Below are positions 4,381 to 56,226 of a stretch of 64,000 nucleotides of DNA, piece by piece. The notes under the pieces are model-generated. The model did no database searches. It had not been told where the DNA came from and saw only the letters and a list, made by a program, of their open reading frames with translations. Position numbers and translations under genes: made by a program. Source of the DNA: Arbacia lixula (taxonomy: Eukaryota > Echinodermata > Echinoidea > Arbacioida > Arbaciidae); contig OZ022590.1 in the NCBI GenBank assembly GCA_963669155.1, forward strand, positions 894,288 through 958,287, written 5' to 3'. Position 1 is the first letter of the stretch. Every line of letters starts with the position of its first letter.

Positions 4381-4391
4381 TCACCACACAG
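4381..4391 (+). promoter_or_regulatory. Candidate 3' splice acceptor before the GT10 exon
   Basis: 'tcaccacacag' followed by GTCTTCCTG and then the ATG looks like an acceptor. If it is used, the 599-codon frame is the last, large coding exon of a gene with at least one 5' exon upstream. Only RNA evidence can decide this. Confidence 0.35.
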
Positions 4392-4400
4392 GTCTTCCTG

Positions 4401-6200
4401 ATGCGAGTGGCCAACAAGACGACATCTCGCTTCGGCATCACGCTGTTCCTCTTCTGCTCGTCTCTATGGCTACTCACCCAAGCTTTCCTCGCCCTTCACA
4501 ACGGCTGCTGGATGGTCAACCAGGAGGTGCTCACCCGCGTCAAGGCCCAGAAGGCGAGCACGGACTGTAAGCAAGCGGCGAGCGTGGCGGGGATCGGCAC
4601 GCAGCGCGACGTACGGGAGCGCGTACAGCGCGTCGTCTTGGACGAACCCATGCGGAACCTCGCTATATCGCATGAACCAAAGCCCAATGGGACAGGGAGC
4701 ACATCGGGCGTAGAGGGCGTGGCGGGAGGAGCGGTAGCAGCCGCACCGGAGGTAAAGGCGGTGTTCAGTGTGATCGTGGAGCGAGGAGGCGTGGCAGCTG
4801 CAGGACAGCCAGTTAACATGATGAGCAAGGACGCGCAAGTGCCTGGTGTACAGGCGGAGGGTCAGCGCGATAAGCGATCCGATGGTGATGCAGAGAAAAG
4901 AGCGAGTGGACAGAAGGCCGTGGATACTGCCTACAGTTTGGCATCGCTGAATGCTTCGACCCAGCTCGCTGCAGCCGCGGAGGCTGTTCCGACAAAGAAG
5001 CCGTTTCCGCCAGGGACTGGCGTACCGGTCCTGAAGGCTAAAGCTGGTCCGTACAAGCTACCGGCCAATACGTCTAGGTACATCGAGAAGCTGACCAAAG
5101 AGACATGGCAGACCATGGGGTGCGTGGAGCGCGTTTCCATCTTCGCTCCAGGAGCAAGGTACCTCCCGCAGGAATACATATGGAGGGAGCTCCTTGCGTC
5201 TTTCCAGAGATACAATATGGGCTATTTCCTCCTTAGGTGCCCGAACAACGCGTGCGATCTCATCCTGCGCACGGCCTCAACGGCCAAGAGCATCGCCAAC
5301 GCTCTGCCAGAAGGCGGCGCCCTCTTGGTAGGTGCTACGACGCAGTCCATGCGCGGGAAGACACGCGCTGTCATGGAGGAACTCAACGGCATGGAGCTCG
5401 AAAACCCAATTAAAACCTACCTCTTTTCTCTCGACTCTTCTCCGATGATGAACTACTACGAACCTTACATGGCGAATTTTCAGTACCACTACAGCATGAC
5501 GTACCACTCACAATCTTCTGTACCGATCCCATACGGGCACTACCGGGCAGGTGTGAACAAGGAAAGCGAGCGGAACTGGGCGGAGGGCAAGACGGGGCTG
5601 GTGGCGTGGGTAGAAGATAACTGCAATCGGACTTTCTGGCCGCGCATCGAGTACGTGCACGAGCTCAGCAAACACATCCAAGTCGACACGTACGGCCGCT
5701 GTGGCAACCTCAGATGCAAATCGCTTCACTGCCGCGAGGAACTGAAGAAGTATAAATTTGTGCTTGCGCTGGAGGAAGCAGCGTGTGACGAGTTCATCAC
5801 TCTAGCCTTCTGGCAGCGCGGTCTCGCTGCGGGCGCTGTTCCCGTTGTCTACGGAGGCAGGAAGTTCGCATACGAGAAGGTAGGTCCTCCCAAGTCCTTC
5901 CTCCACATCGCGGACTACGCCTCGCCCGAAGCTCTCGCGCAGCACCTGCTCGCGTTGGACAAATCAGACAGCGAGTATAACCAGTTTCAGCGATGGAGAA
6001 CTCGTGGGTCGGTGGATGTGTCGGGTCCGGGTTTCAAGATATCGTCGCTGTGCAGCATGGTACCCCAACTTATACACCAGTTTCCTCCAATGCCAAAGGT
6101 CATGTCCATGGACAAGTTCTACAGGACTTGTCGTAAGGGAATATACGTCAAAGGTTTGGCAGGCGTAGGTGACTTAAACAACTGGACACCATGGGTATAA
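4401..6200 (+). CDS. Family 10 glycosyltransferase (alpha-1,3-fucosyltransferase-like), divergent active site
   Basis: A 599-codon intronless frame, clearly richer in GC than its surroundings. It has the layout of a type II Golgi enzyme. A short basic N-terminus precedes one membrane segment at about residues 12-32. A low-complexity stem runs to about residue 215, and the catalytic region follows. Family marks are SMTYHSQSSVPIPYG (365-379), VAWVEDNC (401-408), VDTYGRCGN (428-436), YKFVLAL (451-457) and VPVVYGG (480-486). Known members move fucose from GDP-fucose to N-acetylglucosamine on glycans. Here the usual FENS...DYITEK loop reads LEEA...EFITLA (457-469), so the Asn, Tyr, Glu and Lys positions expected to hold GDP-fucose are changed. 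Possible N-glycosylation sites lie at N96, N184, N223, N409 and N594. A 3' splice-like 'caccacacag' ends 9 bases before this ATG and the frame stays open across it, so an upstream exon may exist. Family is secure; activity is uncertain. Confidence 0.88.
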   Translation: MRVANKTTSRFGITLFLFCSSLWLLTQAFLALHNGCWMVNQEVLTRVKAQKASTDCKQAASVAGIGTQRDVRERVQRVVLDEPMRNLAISHEPKPNGTGSTSGVEGVAGGAVAAAPEVKAVFSVIVERGGVAAAGQPVNMMSKDAQVPGVQAEGQRDKRSDGDAEKRASGQKAVDTAYSLASLNASTQLAAAAEAVPTKKPFPPGTGVPVLKAKAGPYKLPANTSRYIEKLTKETWQTMGCVERVSIFAPGARYLPQEYIWRELLASFQRYNMGYFLLRCPNNACDLILRTASTAKSIANALPEGGALLVGATTQSMRGKTRAVMEELNGMELENPIKTYLFSLDSSPMMNYYEPYMANFQYHYSMTYHSQSSVPIPYGHYRAGVNKESERNWAEGKTGLVAWVEDNCNRTFWPRIEYVHELSKHIQVDTYGRCGNLRCKSLHCREELKKYKFVLALEEAACDEFITLAFWQRGLAAGAVPVVYGGRKFAYEKVGPPKSFLHIADYASPEALAQHLLALDKSDSEYNQFQRWRTRGSVDVSGPGFKISSLCSMVPQLIHQFPPMPKVMSMDKFYRTCRKGIYVKGLAGVGDLNNWTPWV

Positions 6201-6503: not shown

Positions 6504-6509
6504 AATAAA
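6504..6509 (+). terminator. Candidate polyadenylation signal for the GT10 gene
   Basis: AATAAA about 300 bases after the TAA stop at 6198-6200, in AT-rich sequence typical of a 3' UTR. It is the first perfect hexamer that I noticed downstream of the stop. Confidence 0.45.
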
Positions 6510-26604: not shown

Positions 26605-26813
26605 CTGCAATGAGTCAAAGAGAAGAAAGAGATTAGATTTTAAATAATAGACGGTCATACAGTGACTTCTAAGACTACAGCCTCTACTAGCAACACTTTA
26701 ATGATCATCGTCATCACTTTCATTGTAATCAATGTCAACATGATCATCATAATTACCATCAAAATGGCTATTTTCATCACCTTTGTCATAATCATCATTG
26801 CCATTACTGTCAT

Positions 26814-26814
<1 letters not shown>

Positions 26815-26857
<43 letters not shown>

Positions 26858-26874
26858 CCATCATCACCATCATC

Positions 26875-26920
<46 letters not shown>

Positions 26921-26921
26921 A

Positions 26922-26953
<32 letters not shown>

Positions 26954-27036
26954 ACATCATTACAATCTTCACCATCGCTTCAATTACCATTACCACCATC
27001 ACCCCTACCATCATCATCACCATCACCATCACCCCG
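26815..27036. repeat. ATC/GAT trinucleotide repeat
   Basis: Nearly pure (ATC)n from 26815 to 26952, then interrupted CAT/CAC repeats to about 27036. It lies in the intron starting about 40 bases after the donor at 27076. Long frames in all phases (poly-Met, poly-Ser, poly-Ile) are artefacts. Confidence 0.95.
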
Positions 27037-27075
27037 CTGCTAACCAGGCAGGTCACCATGCCAACCCCTCCTTAC

Positions 27076-27168
27076 CTGGAGGATGTAGACTTCTACCCTT
27101 CCTCCCAGCCACAGCTCAAACTTCTTCTTGTCCCCCTTCACATGCTCTGTGACTCCCAAGGTGGTTGT
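27076..27168 (-). CDS. MCF2L: RhoGEF exon: PH domain core strands
   Basis: Acceptor 'ctcctcaaacag', donor CTCCAG|GTAAGG; 31 codons, phase 0 at both ends. It reads TTTLGVTEHVKGDKKKFELW and continues to EVYILQ. Vertebrate DBS has 'VGITENVKGDAKKFEIW...REEVYIVQ', so homology is unambiguous. Confidence 0.96.
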
Positions 27169-27806
27169 CTGTTTGAGGAGAGCAACAGAGAACTTGTTGT
27201 ATAAAAAGCCAGATGAAATGCTCCTCTTTACGGTTAGTGTGCTTCGACAGTGAAAAGATACCCATAAAGAGTCAATAGAAGGTCCAATCAAAGTCCAGTA
27301 ACAAGAACTTTTCTTTTTCATCACATAATTGTAGTTTATTGATGATATATCACATTTCCTGCATGTAGGTATTTATTGCAATTTCAGAATCAACAGAATA
27401 AAGAGTAGCTGGTCAAAGGTTAGATTTGCAAAAGGGGATTCCGGAATACATGCGATTGGATTACACATGCAATCAAGTGCATATTTTCATGTTTTATTAT
27501 CATTGAGGTAAGGGATGCAGTCGGGGAACTCACGAAAATGAAATCATCATGAATTTTTTAAATAAAAAAAGCAATTATTCATGTCCTCTTACAGCATAAA
27601 ATTAAAAAATAAATATAAATGATATATTTGATGAACAAGATACAATATAAATTAAAAAAGAAAACAGTATATTTGAATGAATTAACCTGTTGTGTGCAAG
27701 ATTAATCCACTACTTTATCCTCGTGATTTGTATTTGAGTCACATGTAGCACACTAAGAGTTAAGCGCTAAAGCATAATGATGAGTGACAACAGACACAGT
27801 ACTCAC

Positions 27807-47672: not shown

Positions 47673-48291
47673 AGTTTGATTTCTCTTTTTAACGTATGGC
47701 TGAAGCACATCACATTGGTAAAGCACGTTCAATCAATGCAAGTGAGAAAGCGATCAGAAATGTACATAAAATACTGCATCATGTGAAATGGAATCAATCA
47801 CAACAACATTACAAGTGGCAACAAAATACTGGATCACATTAAGTGTTACATTCAAATACCGTGCATTAATCAAGAACATAACGCTTTTCATTTAAACAAT
47901 GAGAAACAAAGCTCAAAACATCAATTACTTTTTTGTAGTTTATGCTTTGAATCCTACCAGTTTGGAAACTGCCACTGCAGATATTAATGATGTGTAACTA
48001 TTAGCGTGTAAGCAATTAAAAAATCATCAATTTTGAGGATCACTTTGCCAAATGATAGGAGATAGAGCTAAGCAACAATAAAAAACAAACAAAGATAGAT
48101 CAACAAATGAAATGACAAAGTCATTCATTTTGAGAATCACTTTGCCATCAAGACAAATGGAGAGGTAAGCATCAACATAAAACCTAAGATATATCAACGA
48201 CAACATAAGGTGACAAAGTCAAGGTTACGTAAGTGCTGAGCTGTCATTTGAGACGGTCAAATGACCGTTCCTGGACAGGATCTGGACTTAC

Positions 48292-48483
48292 CTTTCCGTC
48301 CATGGTGAGAATGTCAGCAAACATCCGCCTGAACTCACGGGGGTCGCTCAGCTTCAGCTCACGGGCGCTGCGAAGCTCCTCGTCGATCTGCCGCAGGTAC
48401 TTCTCTGCGCCCTCCTTGGATTGTGATTGGTCCATTTCCTGGGAGGCAAGCAGCTTCATGCCCTCACTGCACCAATCATCAGC
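48292..48483 (-). CDS. MCF2L: RhoGEF exon: spectrin-like coil
   Basis: Acceptor 'ctgtttacag', donor GGAAAG|GTAAGT; 64 codons, phase 0. It encodes ADDWCSEGMKLLASQEMDQS, then QSKEGAEKYLRQIDEEL and a helix ending FADILTMDGK. DBS has 'MKWCDEGIYLLASQPVDKCQSQDGAEAALQEIEKFL' (given in outline), so this is the same repeat. Confidence 0.95.
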
Positions 48484-48488
48484 CTGTA

Positions 48489-49515
48489 AACAGGAGAGGG
48501 GAGAGGGGAGAGCGGGAAGGGAAGAGGGGAAGGAATGAAAAGTAGAAGAAAGAGGGGGAGAGGGGGAAGGGAAGGGGGAAGGAGAGGGGAAGGGAAAGGA
48601 AAGTGAATAGGTAGAAGACAGAGAAAGAGAGGGGAGAGAGGGAAGGGAAGGGGGGAAGGAATGAAAAGTAGAAGAAAGAGGGGGAGAGGGGGAAGGGAAG
48701 GGGGAAGGAGAGGGGAAGGGAAAGGAAAGTGAATAGGTAGAAGACAGAGAAAGAGAGGGGAGAGAGGGAAGGGAAGGGGGGAAGGAATGAAAAGTAGAAG
48801 AAAGAGGGGGAGAGGGGGAAGGGAAGGGGGAAGGAGAGGGGGGAAGGAAAGGAAAGTGAATAGGTAGAAGACAGAGAAAGAGAGGGGAGAGGGGGAAGGG
48901 AAGGGGAGAAAGGAATGAAAAGTAGAAGACACAGAGGGAGAGGGGAGAGGGGGAAGGAGAGGGGGAGAAAGGAAAGAAAAGTGAACAGGTAGACGACAGA
49001 GAGGAATGAGGTGAGAAGGAAGGAGAGAGATGAGGGAGGAGCAAAAATAGAAAAAGGAAGAAAAGGGAGAAAAAGGAGAAAAAGTAAAGGAAGAAGATAG
49101 AGAAGTGAGTGGGAGAAATGGGAAGAGAGAATGGAAGGAAAGGGAGGGGGAAGAAGGAAGAAAAGGTTGAAAAGAAGAAAAAATGAAAAAGGAAGAATAC
49201 AGAGCAGGAAGGGAAGAAGGCAAAAGAGAGAAAGGAAGGAAGGAGGGTGAAGGGAGAAAAGTAAGAAGAACAGAAAGGAGGGGGTGAGAAGGAAGAAGAT
49301 AAAGAGGGAGAAGAGTGGGGGAAGGAAAGAAACAAGAAAAAGGGAAAGAGCAGAAGAGAGGAGGGAAAGGGGAAACATGTAGTTGAGAAAGAGAGAAAGA
49401 GAGAAATGAGAGAAAGAAAGGGAAAGAGAGAAAGAAAGAGAAAGAGAGAAGGAAAGAAAGAAGAGAGAGGGGAGAGGGGGCAGAGAGAGACAGGGAAAGA
49501 CACAGACAGAGACAG
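48489..49515. repeat. 1-kb polypurine tract with internal repeats of about 125 bp
   Basis: Nearly all A and G on the + strand. A unit starting 'aggaatgaaaagtagaag' recurs at about 48531, 48657, 48783 and 48911. On the gene's strand it is a very long polypyrimidine tract leading into the acceptor at 48484. The large Ser/Phe/Leu/Pro frames here (up to 454 codons) are artefacts. Confidence 0.93.
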
Positions 49516-52140
49516 AAACAAAAAAAATGGAGAGAAAATACCAATTATGAGAAAAAGGTCAGATAATTGTTGACTAGTTCTGAGGAAATGACCATAACGA
49601 AGACTCACTCACCCACAAAACCGGACTGTTTAACACGCCATGGGAATCATCACTACCTTAAAGCAACGGTGACAGGCTAACATAACGGTGACAAGGTAAA
49701 GAATTTGTCACATTCTAACACTACTTTTAAAAAGAAATTACACAAAAGAAATGCATACAGAATGATCAGAGCTTATCACATTCAAAAGTGAGATGCAAGG
49801 AATGAAATTGGATTAGCCTATTCCTTGTTCATTGGCAAAATACAACAAATTTGACCATATTGCTTTCACACCTTTATGATTGGAGGAGTGGTATGGAGGA
49901 TAGGAGTGAAAGGAAAAAGGTATAGAGAGAGGGAGAGATGGAAGAAGACCAGGAGAGAATCACAAAAGTAAGAGAGATAGCAAAATGAACAAGGGAGATT
50001 GATGTCAGATTTGTGGGTTTAAAAGTGGGTGAAAACTCTCCTAGAAACAAATAACAGATTGCAAGGATTACTTTAATCTTGATCCCAACGATGTATGTTA
50101 AAATGGCATGTGCTACATTCAAGGAAGCAAGGGGAAACATTAAATTCATCAAGGATTTCTTGAAAGATAAGAACGAGGGGAGAACTATGCACAGGGAAGA
50201 CAGAATGAGGTTTGTGTAATGTCTGACTCCAGTAGAAGGAAAAGCCTCAATGGCGGACGCCTGATGATCAATCTTCAGTACAAGGTAACAACAATAAACA
50301 ATGCAGCTGCAGCAAAGATTTCAGTCATCAAATGCTATCAACTCAACAAGCAAGAAAAGCGTATTAACTCTTGGCATACCAGATGCATTATTGATGGTGG
50401 AAAAAAATCCACAAACACGCATAAAGTGTTAGAAAAGACAAATTGCTATTGTTTTGAGTTTTGAGTTGCAGTTTCATCTGATGATGTGAATCTACATACA
50501 CATTCCAGCATCAGAACGAATTAGTATTAATTTAGCACATAGCCTTAGAAACCCATCAAACAAATCTCCCCCATGAAACAATTCTAAGCATCGATCAAAG
50601 CAGCATTCTTTGTTTCAGGCAACTCTACAGGAGGTCCTGATTTCAGCCTCCCCTACGGTCTTAATTTCAAGACATTCTGTGATGAATTAGGAGCCAACTA
50701 GAGCAGAACGGGTCAGCACCCCTCTCTCCATGCACTAGTTCCTCCAGGTACAAAAGGTCACAGACACTCCTAAGACTGACCAAGATTTGTGGATGATGAG
50801 GAAATTTTGCGTCAATACAGGAAAATAAAGTAAATAGCAAACTGGCTCTTGCCATACATAAGACCCACTTGTTTTCTAATTAGTTTCGTGTTTTTGTTAA
50901 TGTAAGAATGTTAATGTAAGACTGTAAGAATGTATGGAAGCCTTCTATGGAAGCCTTGAATTTGATTGGCTGTCAAGCAATGTTACCATTGTAGTTACCA
51001 TTGATGGCAGAGTTACCATTAATGGTAAGTTTTATGCAACAGGGCCCTGACCTGCTTATTAAGAACAGCATGAAAGTAACACGATCATACTTCCTAAATT
51101 GGAAAATTTGAGAAGTAGATACCACTGCACCTCTGTGGCATTAACCACAGGAATATAAAAATTAAATTATCATCATCTTACGTGAAAATAAAGATGGGAT
51201 CTTCATAAACAAATTCCACGCAAGTACTAAAAGCCAGACAATAAATGCATACATTTAAATACTGGTCAGCTAACCAGCTATCAATATGACCGGGATATCA
51301 CCATGCAACTCCGAAGGGGAGTAGGATGTTTGCCAAATGGCCCAGGGGTGCTAGGGAGACACCATTCAGGTGCTAATTTCTTCCTCCCGTCTCTCTCTCT
51401 CTTTCTGAGCACACCTTGCTGCCATAACAAGTAAATTACGGTGTTGTGACTGGGATATAATCTGCTTAAATACTGTGCCTCAGGTAAAGTATGATAATTA
51501 TCAACGAATACGCCCTAATAGTTTGAAGATATATTTTGCTGTAGAATATCTATGGAGTTCCAACCTCGTGCGTGCCTACAGCATGTGGCATACACAAGTA
51601 ATACACACAAATCCCATAGAACAGCATTCTATCTGACACTCAAAGGGTTTATCACTGCTTGAATCATAATACTGAAATCTTCCAAATTTATGATAATGAG
51701 ATTTATATTGCAAACTTACTTTCCTTGAAAACAGATTTCATCAGTAAATCTTTTGCAAATATAGTAAATCATAACCGTTTCCCAATCCGTCAAATCATTT
51801 CCTCTAGTTGAAACATTTAATTACTCAAAATAATGCGAGGGCTTCGGTGAGCTTCCTGCAATACAGAGCAAACTTTGAAGCTATGCCATATCTTTCTGTT
51901 GACCCTTCCACACTTAAACTCAGCCTGATAGTGGCCTACACCTTGGTTAATTAGACCAGTTCATGCAACCTTAACACACATGGTTTGGTTTATCTTCAGG
52001 AAATGGTCTACACAAGGACTTACCGTGGGAAGCTATGTTTGTTACCTGCACTTTTAAGTGTTTGCTATTTTATATGAATTGTTTGTGTGTGTTACTTGTT
52101 CTTACCTACATCAGTGATGTAGACATACACTATGTGCATA

Positions 52141-53602: not shown

Positions 53603-55539
53603 CTGTTTATGGGGGAAGAGGGAGCAAAGACAGTTCAAAGTTCTGAAGTGCATAACACATAGTTATTGAGCATGTCCCTATGCACTGTAGAGAAAGAGGT
53701 ACAACATACAAGTTAAGACTGGGCCTCAGTAAAAATGCATACTGTTACATTAGATGTTGTATTAGTGCGTCTTTAAAGCGATTTTAAATGTATCAATTGA
53801 ATCAATGTTTTTCTAGTGTTCTGGGAGACTGTTCCACAAGGTTGAGGCAGTGTAAGTAAAGCTAAGTTCACCACACAACCTGGTTAGAACTGGTGGAACA
53901 ACAAACAGTTTTTTTCTTATTAGAACACAAATTTCTATCTGGTGTGTATTGTGATGTTTTAAGAGAAGAGGTCAGTCAAACATTGCCTTTTAAAAATGGC
54001 CCATCTCTCTTACAAACATCTGCAAATTTCATGAAAGTTTCCACATATTTAGCTCATATCTTTGGGATACCAACTGTGAAATTTTATGGTCAGAGGTACT
54101 ATAACTCCCGTAGAATAAATTAAAATCTAACTAGTTTTCCCTGAGATTTGATTATTTCCGTTTACAAAAAAATAAAGTTTGATCAATTATCAAAGATTAT
54201 TTCCTCAAAACCGAATATTATGCTTTGCAGATTCAAGGGAAAGGTTATATACAACTGTAGCCACTCTCTCTCAAAGTCAGGGAACTTTCAGAATTAGGTC
54301 TGCAAAAGGTACGGTTTACCTTTAAAGTAAACCCTTAATGTGCCACTGGTGGCTTATTTCATTATCAATACACGCAAATCCAAAAGAGCAGCGTTTTGTT
54401 TAGCAAACAAGGGTGAATCCAAGATACTTTGCTTATAACTCTGTCAAATGTACAATTTGGGTTTTCAAAATTATCGACTGGGGTTTAGATTTACAGCAAA
54501 AATGGTAACATATCTTTATATAAATCTTAAGGAATGAGGTCAGGATAAATCTAAGTTACAACTTTTGACATGAAGGCAAATTCACACAACACATACATGG
54601 CAAATCAGATATCAATGTGAAATTGAGGAAATTTAGACTTAACTTGACCGTTCCAACCAGTCCAGGCATTTTTAGCAAAACATACACACACAAACCAGAA
54701 AGAAATACTCCTGTAATGTTCCAGCAGTTTATTCAACAAAACAGTCCTCTTGTATTGCTCCACACATTCAGTGCATATCCTACATGAATGAACTGAATAG
54801 CATGCAAATGCAAGCCAACTCCCATTGCTGTGTTATCACAACCAAGCCTTGGTCCTATCCTACTAATGCAGGGCTGTTCCCACTGCCCACTCACTACATG
54901 TGTGTTAACATTGTCAGGCCTTGTTCTCACTGCCAGGTCGAGTTCCTATCCAATGAAGTAAATGCTAATGCAGGTCTGTCCCCACTTCTGCCTATTTCAT
55001 GGGTAATATCACAATCAAGCCTTGTTCTAACTGCCAAGCTTAGTTCCTATCATATGCATTGAATACTAATAAATGGCCTGTTCCCACTGCTAACTCACTA
55101 CATGTGTGTTATCACAGTCAGGCCTTGTTTTGGTTTAGCGCTTCCTCTCCAAAAGCTGATCCATATCTGAAAGGGGAACGTCACATTGATATCAACAACC
55201 CACATCCAGTGTCCACGCCATGATGGCGGCATTGCGCAATGGTGCAATGTTATCACTCTCCTCCTGGCGAGAGGAAAACAGAGGGAAGGAGAAACTCTGG
55301 TGGCGTCCATGCTAATCTGAAAGCACTGACAGGTTGCAGATCTGAGTATGAACATGTAACAAGCACCTGTCAGGAACAAGATAAGGTGCAATCAAATTAT
55401 GTACTTTTAAAGAAATACACTACAAACATGTATCACATCAAAGTCCTCTTTATTTCATACTGAGGAGTTTACTGAGATGTGAGATCTTGTGTCTAGCACT
55501 GGTTGGGTGTAATGCAGTGACCCAAGGAGAAGGTGGATA

Positions 55540-56030
55540 GAAGAAGAAGAAGAAGAAGAAGAAGAAGAAGAAGAAGAAGAAGAAGAAGAAGAAGAAGAAG
55601 AAGAAGAAGAAGAAGAAGAAGAAGAAGAAGAAGAAGAAGAAGAAGAAGAAGAAGAAGAAGAAGAAGAAGAAGAAGAAGAAGAAGAAGAAGAAGAAGAAGA
55701 AGAAGAAGAAGAAGAAGAAGAAGAAGAAGAAGAAGAAGAAGAAGAAGAAGAAGAAGAAGAAGAAGAAGAAGAAGAAGAAAAAGAAGAAAAAGAAGAAGAA
55801 GAAGAACAAGAAGAAGATGAAGAAGAAGAAGAAGAAAAAGAAGTAGAAGAAGTAGAAGAAGAAGAAGAAGAAGAAGAAGAAGAAGAAGAAGAAAAAGAAG
55901 TAGAAGAACAAGAAGAAGAAGAAGAAGAAGAAGAAGAAGAAGAAAAAGAAGAAGTAGAAGAAGAACAAGAAGAAGAAGAAGAAGAAGAAGAAGAAGAGGA
56001 GGAGGAGGAGGAGGGGAGAGAAGAAGGAGA
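55540..56030. repeat. GAA/TTC triplet expansion
   Basis: An uninterrupted (GAA) run of 240 bases, 80 units, at 55540-55779, then about 250 bases of GAA with AAA, CAA, TAG, GAT and GAG interruptions. It lies in the intron from about 75 bases after the donor at 56107. All long frames through it (poly-Phe, poly-Leu, poly-Arg) are artefacts. Confidence 0.98.
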
Positions 56031-56106
56031 AAAAAAAAGGACAAGAGCAAAAAGAAAGAGCAGGAGGAGAAGAAGATGACGACTACAGAAATAAAAACTT
56101 CTTTAC

Positions 56107-56226
56107 CTGGCTTTCTATTTCCAGTCCTGAATGTCTTTCTAAGTATTTGTTGCATTCCTCCACCGAGTTGCCTATACTGCCCTCTAAGTTGATCTTCTCT
56201 GCAATGTTGTCAATGAGTAATAGAAC
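56107..56226 (-). CDS. MCF2L: RhoGEF exon: spectrin-like coil
   Basis: Acceptor 'atttctttcag', donor AGCCAG|GTAAAG; 40 codons, phase 0. It reads VLLLIDNIAEKINLEGSIGN, then SVEECNKYLERHSGLEIESQ. The IGNS motif followed by a heptad-like helix lines up with 'TDIGNSLAHVEHLLRDL' in DBS. Confidence 0.93.

Follow-up and report, generated by a model that had tools for sequence, protein, structure and literature searches.

Members of glycosyltransferase family 10 (GT10) are given as eight in humans, FUT3-7 and FUT9-11 (PMC11949838), and echinoderm genomes are reported to average 79 of them (PMC11468063). In the fucosyltransferase (FucT) of H. pylori, Tyr246, Glu249 and Lys250 are described in a figure legend as conserved catalytic residues that contact GDP-fucose (PMC11468063), and according to a review the same enzyme mutated at Glu95 and Glu249 is virtually inactive (PMC4202792). 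Among titles and the opening parts of abstracts, with most subscription journals outside the scope, we found no report of inactive GT10 paralogs, and titles and abstract openings likewise gave no explanation for the echinoderm GT10 expansion. The Arbacia lixula gene described here encodes a GT10 protein in which the counterparts of Tyr246, Glu249 and Lys250 are all replaced.

The gene occupies bp 4401-6200 of the forward strand of the window (the whole 64,000-nucleotide stretch of contig OZ022590.1 that was analysed) as a single open frame of 599 codons, free of internal stops. Its protein matches PF00852 at 140.2 bits (cut-off 23.9) over residues 395-554 (bp 5583-6062), and its phmmer matches among PDB sequences are FUT9 (8d0o, E 7.6e-23, residues 361-551), a FucTA (9s6a) and 7yro; the initial annotation had already recognized the GT10 membership and the stop-free frame, and both hold. 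Scored by family codon usage, the frame comes first of those window frames that have 40 or more amino acids and 13 or more different residues; this ranking is partly circular because the codon-usage table includes the gene itself. The top Kyte-Doolittle window (mean 1.81) lies at residue 13, and the hydrophobic segment there, residues about 12-31 (bp 4434-4493), is probably a signal anchor, with a predicted type II Golgi topology; a second peak (1.50) lies at residues 107-108. An N-terminal membrane segment is typical of animal Golgi GT10 members, and the window protein has a probable one; a stem some 200 residues long and then the GT10 domain follow it. A single-sequence AlphaFold2 model has a mean pLDDT of 37.7, too low to use for the GT-B fold. 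An AG at bp 4390-4391, nine bases 5' of the ATG, is by its sequence a putative splice acceptor of a candidate 5' UTR intron; the paralog L031 likewise has an AG, 15 bases ahead of its ATG. An AATAAA at bp 6504-6509 is a candidate polyadenylation signal by consensus match.

Elsewhere in the window, exons in minus-strand order at bp 25472-53626 encode Spectrin, Spectrin_5, RhoGEF, PH and SH3 domains (PF00435 below cut-off; PF23289, of DBS-like factors, once above and once below; PF00621, PF22697 and PF00018). Presumably these are parts of a DBS/MCF2L-type RhoGEF, the MCF2L name being taken from the domain order. Low-complexity or simple-repeat tracts at bp 55450-56155, 26655-27204 and 48244-49608 give long open frames of few residue kinds.

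A search of the genome (607 Mb in 590 contigs) for PF00852 gave at least 80 matches above cut-off, which fits the published echinoderm average; 72 of the 80 sit in open frames of 400-620 codons, and an internal stop in one match (C22:6864831), together with the short frames of several others, points to turnover in the family. The window protein was aligned with those of 76 further loci (77 rows in all), and a tree was made of 72 rows. Among the fetched loci L031 and L053 score highest against it (264 and 233 bits), with domain identities of 36% and 34%, respectively.

The donor loop of the window protein is LEEAACDEFITLA (residues 457-469, bp 5769-5807), with Glu459, Phe465, Leu468 and Ala469 exactly as the initial annotation had them. 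When a profile of 28 family rows is aligned to H. pylori FucT (2nzw), the loop columns fall on FENTQGYGYVTEK, and the counterparts of Tyr246, Glu249 and Lys250 are Phe465, Leu468 and Ala469; the numbering of these residues and of Arg195 was counted along the printed 2nzw alignment and agrees with the residue names found in PMC11468063. LEEAACDEFITLAFW of the window protein pairs with LENAPCDEYISEKFW of L031 and L053 without a gap, and the loop is gap-free against most rows of the 77-row alignment. An intact loop masked by a gap artefact was considered and is rejected: no alignment made here restores the residues, the window protein and seven near paralogs (L031, L053, L029, L020, L019, L052 and L004) are gap-free there, and the single gap that phmmer places behind the loop in its alignments to FUT9 and FucTA does not bring back Glu or Lys. 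A frameshift or assembly slip was also considered and judged unlikely, as frame and length agree on both flanks of the loop. Among the 77 rows the window protein alone carries this loop, and pattern scans of viral and prokaryotic collections, of a kind that picks up close relatives, turned up no relative.

Tyr, Glu and Lys occupy the three columns in 73, 72 and 73 of the 77 rows, respectively. The full triple is kept in 72 rows and wholly lost in four, those of the window protein (replaced by F, L, A), L047 (F, D, Q), L044 (F, D, gap) and L076 (L, A, D); L071 has a single change, E to D. The claim that four donor-site residues are replaced thus stands for Tyr, Glu and Lys, and is weakest for Asn, which is outside the trio named in the figure legend of PMC11468063; its column is Ser in L019, L020, L052 and L047, and the first three of these keep the triple. 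A clade of nine other members (L027, L049, L056, L062, L066, L067, L068, L070 and L072) has IPN-, LPN- or MPN-type loops in place of LEN with YITEK intact.

The rest of the fold, which had been called intact, is so for the conserved cysteine positions of the GT10 family and for Arg415 (bp 5643-5645), but two other motifs are changed. Arg415 lies opposite Arg195 of H. pylori FucT in the alignment to 2nzw and the family rows; the column is Arg in 74 of 77 rows (two gaps, one Ser), and we take the H. pylori residue to have a role in donor handling. Residues 345-348 (bp 5433-5444) read DSSP where the family mostly has xESP, so that the Glu is replaced by Asp345 when paired ungapped with L031, or by Ser346 in the 77-row alignment, and is missing under either. 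We take this Glu to be the catalytic base and to match Glu95 of the H. pylori enzyme, a position that the 2nzw alignment stops short of; the alignment of the loop reaches FUT9, 9s6a, 7yro, 2nzw and 5zoi, and that of the ESP motif reaches FUT9 and 9s6a only. Residues 405-408 (bp 5613-5624) are EDNC, found in none of the other rows of the 72, where ASNC (21 rows) or ASHC (22 rows) is usual. The C-terminus reads GDLNNWTPW, against GDITNWTPW in L031. In a separate clade (L058, L061, L064 and L069, support 100/100) the ESP motif is NPP and the donor loop is intact, a possible loss of the base alone.

How far these losses exceed ordinary variation was gauged on the 42 columns in which 90% or more of a reference set of 65 members agree. 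The window protein retains 32 of them and has lost ten (D306, Q338, E346, Y454, N459, Y465, E468, K469, I501 and F506); leaving each reference out in turn gives a median loss of one and a maximum of six (L004). The deep-branching L074 and L075 have lost 12 of 42 each with the triple untouched. That all three donor residues fall within ten losses of 42 has p 0.0105; for the triple with Arg195 and the ESP Glu, four of five are lost (p 0.008), and for the triple with Arg195 only, p is 0.028. Over the five columns such concentration is nominally significant for the window protein, L047 and L044 and not for L076 (p 0.13) or L071 (p 0.62), and over the triple alone for the window protein, L047, L044 and L076 and not for L071 (p 0.43), all these p values being descriptive since the rows were chosen for their loops. 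Among the other triples of conserved columns (n=11,480), one is jointly lost in four of 72 rows and one in three; the one that reaches four does so in the window protein and a single clade (L019, L020 and L052), and the joint losses of Tyr, Glu and Lys are spread over four clades.

On the tree the window protein groups with six paralogs in which the triple is intact (support 99/92), L076 with the nine members of the clade with IPN-like loops (100/99), L044 with L030 (100/98), and L047 with L004 (97/80), a join of two long branches that may be false. Parsimony needs four changes for the four triple losses. Placing the four proteins together in one clade is rejected (p-AU 5.7e-32), for a group that was picked after inspection of the tree. 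Further losses differ among them: in L047 the ESP Glu is Gln and the Arg is Ser, in L044 the ESP Glu is Gln, and L076 keeps both. The four longest of the 72 end branches are those of the window protein (1.52), L071 (1.36), L076 (1.29) and L047 (1.21), and rows on branches as long as those of the window protein, L076 and L047 are placed unsurely. L071, second in this order, has other conserved residues altered as well (e.g., W403A, D429T and Y431S). The end-branch lengths hint at a rate acceleration of the window protein, and in relative-rate counts it has more changes than L031 with ten of ten outgroups (nominal p < 0.05 in two of the ten); under one dN/dS, however, its codon branch length equals that of L004 (3.10 and 3.08), and acceleration is not claimed.

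Selection on the frame was measured with a GY94 codon model (F3x4, in a purpose-written script) on eight genes and 325 codons. Overall dN/dS is 0.11. Freeing the window gene's branch raises lnL by 3.7 with a lower dN/dS and a branch length at the bound of 30, and forcing dN/dS = 1 on it costs 22.4 lnL units relative to the free value (2 x delta lnL = 44.8). The value of one is likewise rejected on the branches of L044, L047 and L076, and also on that of L030, the control with an intact loop, whose profile is similar to that of L044. Third positions are 65-69% different and thus saturated, so that dN/dS can be called well below one and its size is not estimated; the own-branch values of 0.008-0.026, with inflated branch lengths, are themselves a sign of saturation and not to be taken literally. 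For the window gene the value is moreover an average that includes the time before the loss, which is undated, and most of the constraint could predate it. Simulated neutral drift of the L031 domain to 36% identity, which puts the entire divergence from L031 on one branch, left a mean of 13.4 stops and a minimum of six in 100 runs, and drift to 60% identity left a mean of 8.4 and a minimum of three (100 runs), against none in the window gene. A dN/dS near one, the mark of a decaying gene, is thus not what the branch gives, and there is no sign of decay in an open frame on which dN/dS = 1 is rejected as an average over a saturated branch. With 32 of 42 conserved columns retained, the suggestion in the initial annotation that the gene is kept under selection is supported as a branch average.

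That the protein transfers fucose is unlikely from its residues, because Glu249 is represented by Leu, Lys250 by Ala, and the ESP Glu is gone. Two of its changes are mild and count against a pseudoenzyme, namely Tyr to Phe and, if the ungapped alignment holds, ESP Glu to Asp. A fucosyltransferase of lowered or altered efficiency, with Asp345 as the base and Arg415 for the diphosphate, would make use of the second of these, and the ESP column is not invariant in proteins with intact donor loops (Asp in L046; Asn in L058, L061, L064 and L069); we consider such an enzyme very improbable, as mutation of Glu249 leaves the H. pylori enzyme virtually inactive (according to the review PMC4202792) and the window protein has Leu there together with the change of Lys250 to Ala. 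It is improbable, if a little less so, that an active transferase has had its pocket rebuilt for another nucleotide sugar, with Glu and Lys becoming dispensable. Purifying selection averaged along the branch, the retained Arg195 counterpart and general domain, and the new acidic residues Glu405 and Asp406 would suit such an enzyme, but the replacements Leu and Ala are non-polar, the ESP Glu is altered too, and no catalytic replacement is visible. The Glu/Lys replacements also differ in the four losses (L-A, D-Q, D-gap and A-D), which makes loss likelier than one new chemistry.

The open frame might alternatively reflect only the recency of the loss, in a young disabled duplicate that is turning into a pseudogene. 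This would not be out of place in a large family with turnover (the internal-stop match and short frames mentioned above), the averaged dN/dS gives no date for the loss, and the loop could be young; we nevertheless think it improbable, since ten of 42 conserved columns have changed and yet all 599 codons are free of stops, the C-terminus and Cys columns are conserved, and three more genes with open frames have the same triple loss. The initial annotation had left the choice between a different donor and a non-catalytic role. The different donor has no positive evidence, and the non-catalytic role is favoured because the changes strike both the donor triple and the ESP Glu, and because three other lineages have lost the triple with different replacements.

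Our preferred reading, held with moderate confidence, is that the gene encodes a pseudo-fucosyltransferase, a GT10 paralog that no longer transfers fucose from GDP-fucose but persists as a folded Golgi protein anchored in the membrane. The kept cysteine framework and the open frame suggest a folded product, and the separate loss of the same triple in three relatives suggests dead enzymes kept for another job; that catalysis is lost, that the protein folds, that it resides in the Golgi and what it does there are inferred. We think that it most likely serves active GT10 paralogs as a partner without catalysis of its own, with which they might form mixed dimers or which might compete with them for acceptor glycans; the outcome would be a tuning of which fucosylated structures get made, by analogy with the action of MGAT4D on MGAT1 or of Cosmc on T-synthase. 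More tentatively, the GT10 expansion may repeatedly yield retained dead fucosyltransferases, with at least four independent losses of Tyr, Glu and Lys under purifying selection and a regulatory layer over dozens of active enzymes. If some members are retained pseudoenzymes, the expansion may be partly regulatory and gene counts would overstate fucosylation capacity. The window protein, L044, L047 and L076 form, with their intact-loop relatives, matched pairs within one genome.

Set beside the described enzymes, the window protein is like FUT9 (8d0o), FucTA (9s6a) and H. pylori FucT (2nzw) in its sequence family (PF00852) and its Arg195 counterpart, and unlike them in the replacement of the ESP Glu and of Tyr, Glu and Lys at the donor site. 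It has the C-terminal NWTPW in common with L031 and L053, which differ from it in having ESP and ENP, plus LENAPCDEYISEK. Cosmc, an inactive relative of T-synthase, is like the protein pictured here in that it is related to a glycosyltransferase and has a role other than catalysis, but it belongs to another family, acts in the ER and has a single client. It is described as the chaperone of T-synthase (PMC5493369, PMC9775496). MGAT4D (GnT1IP-L), which is reported to inhibit MGAT1 in the Golgi via its luminal domain (PMC4572887), may serve as a model of how the window protein works, since it is a glycosyltransferase relative (by gene name) that acts on an active transferase; it is of another GT family, however, and its role is an experimental result, whereas that of the window protein is proposed.
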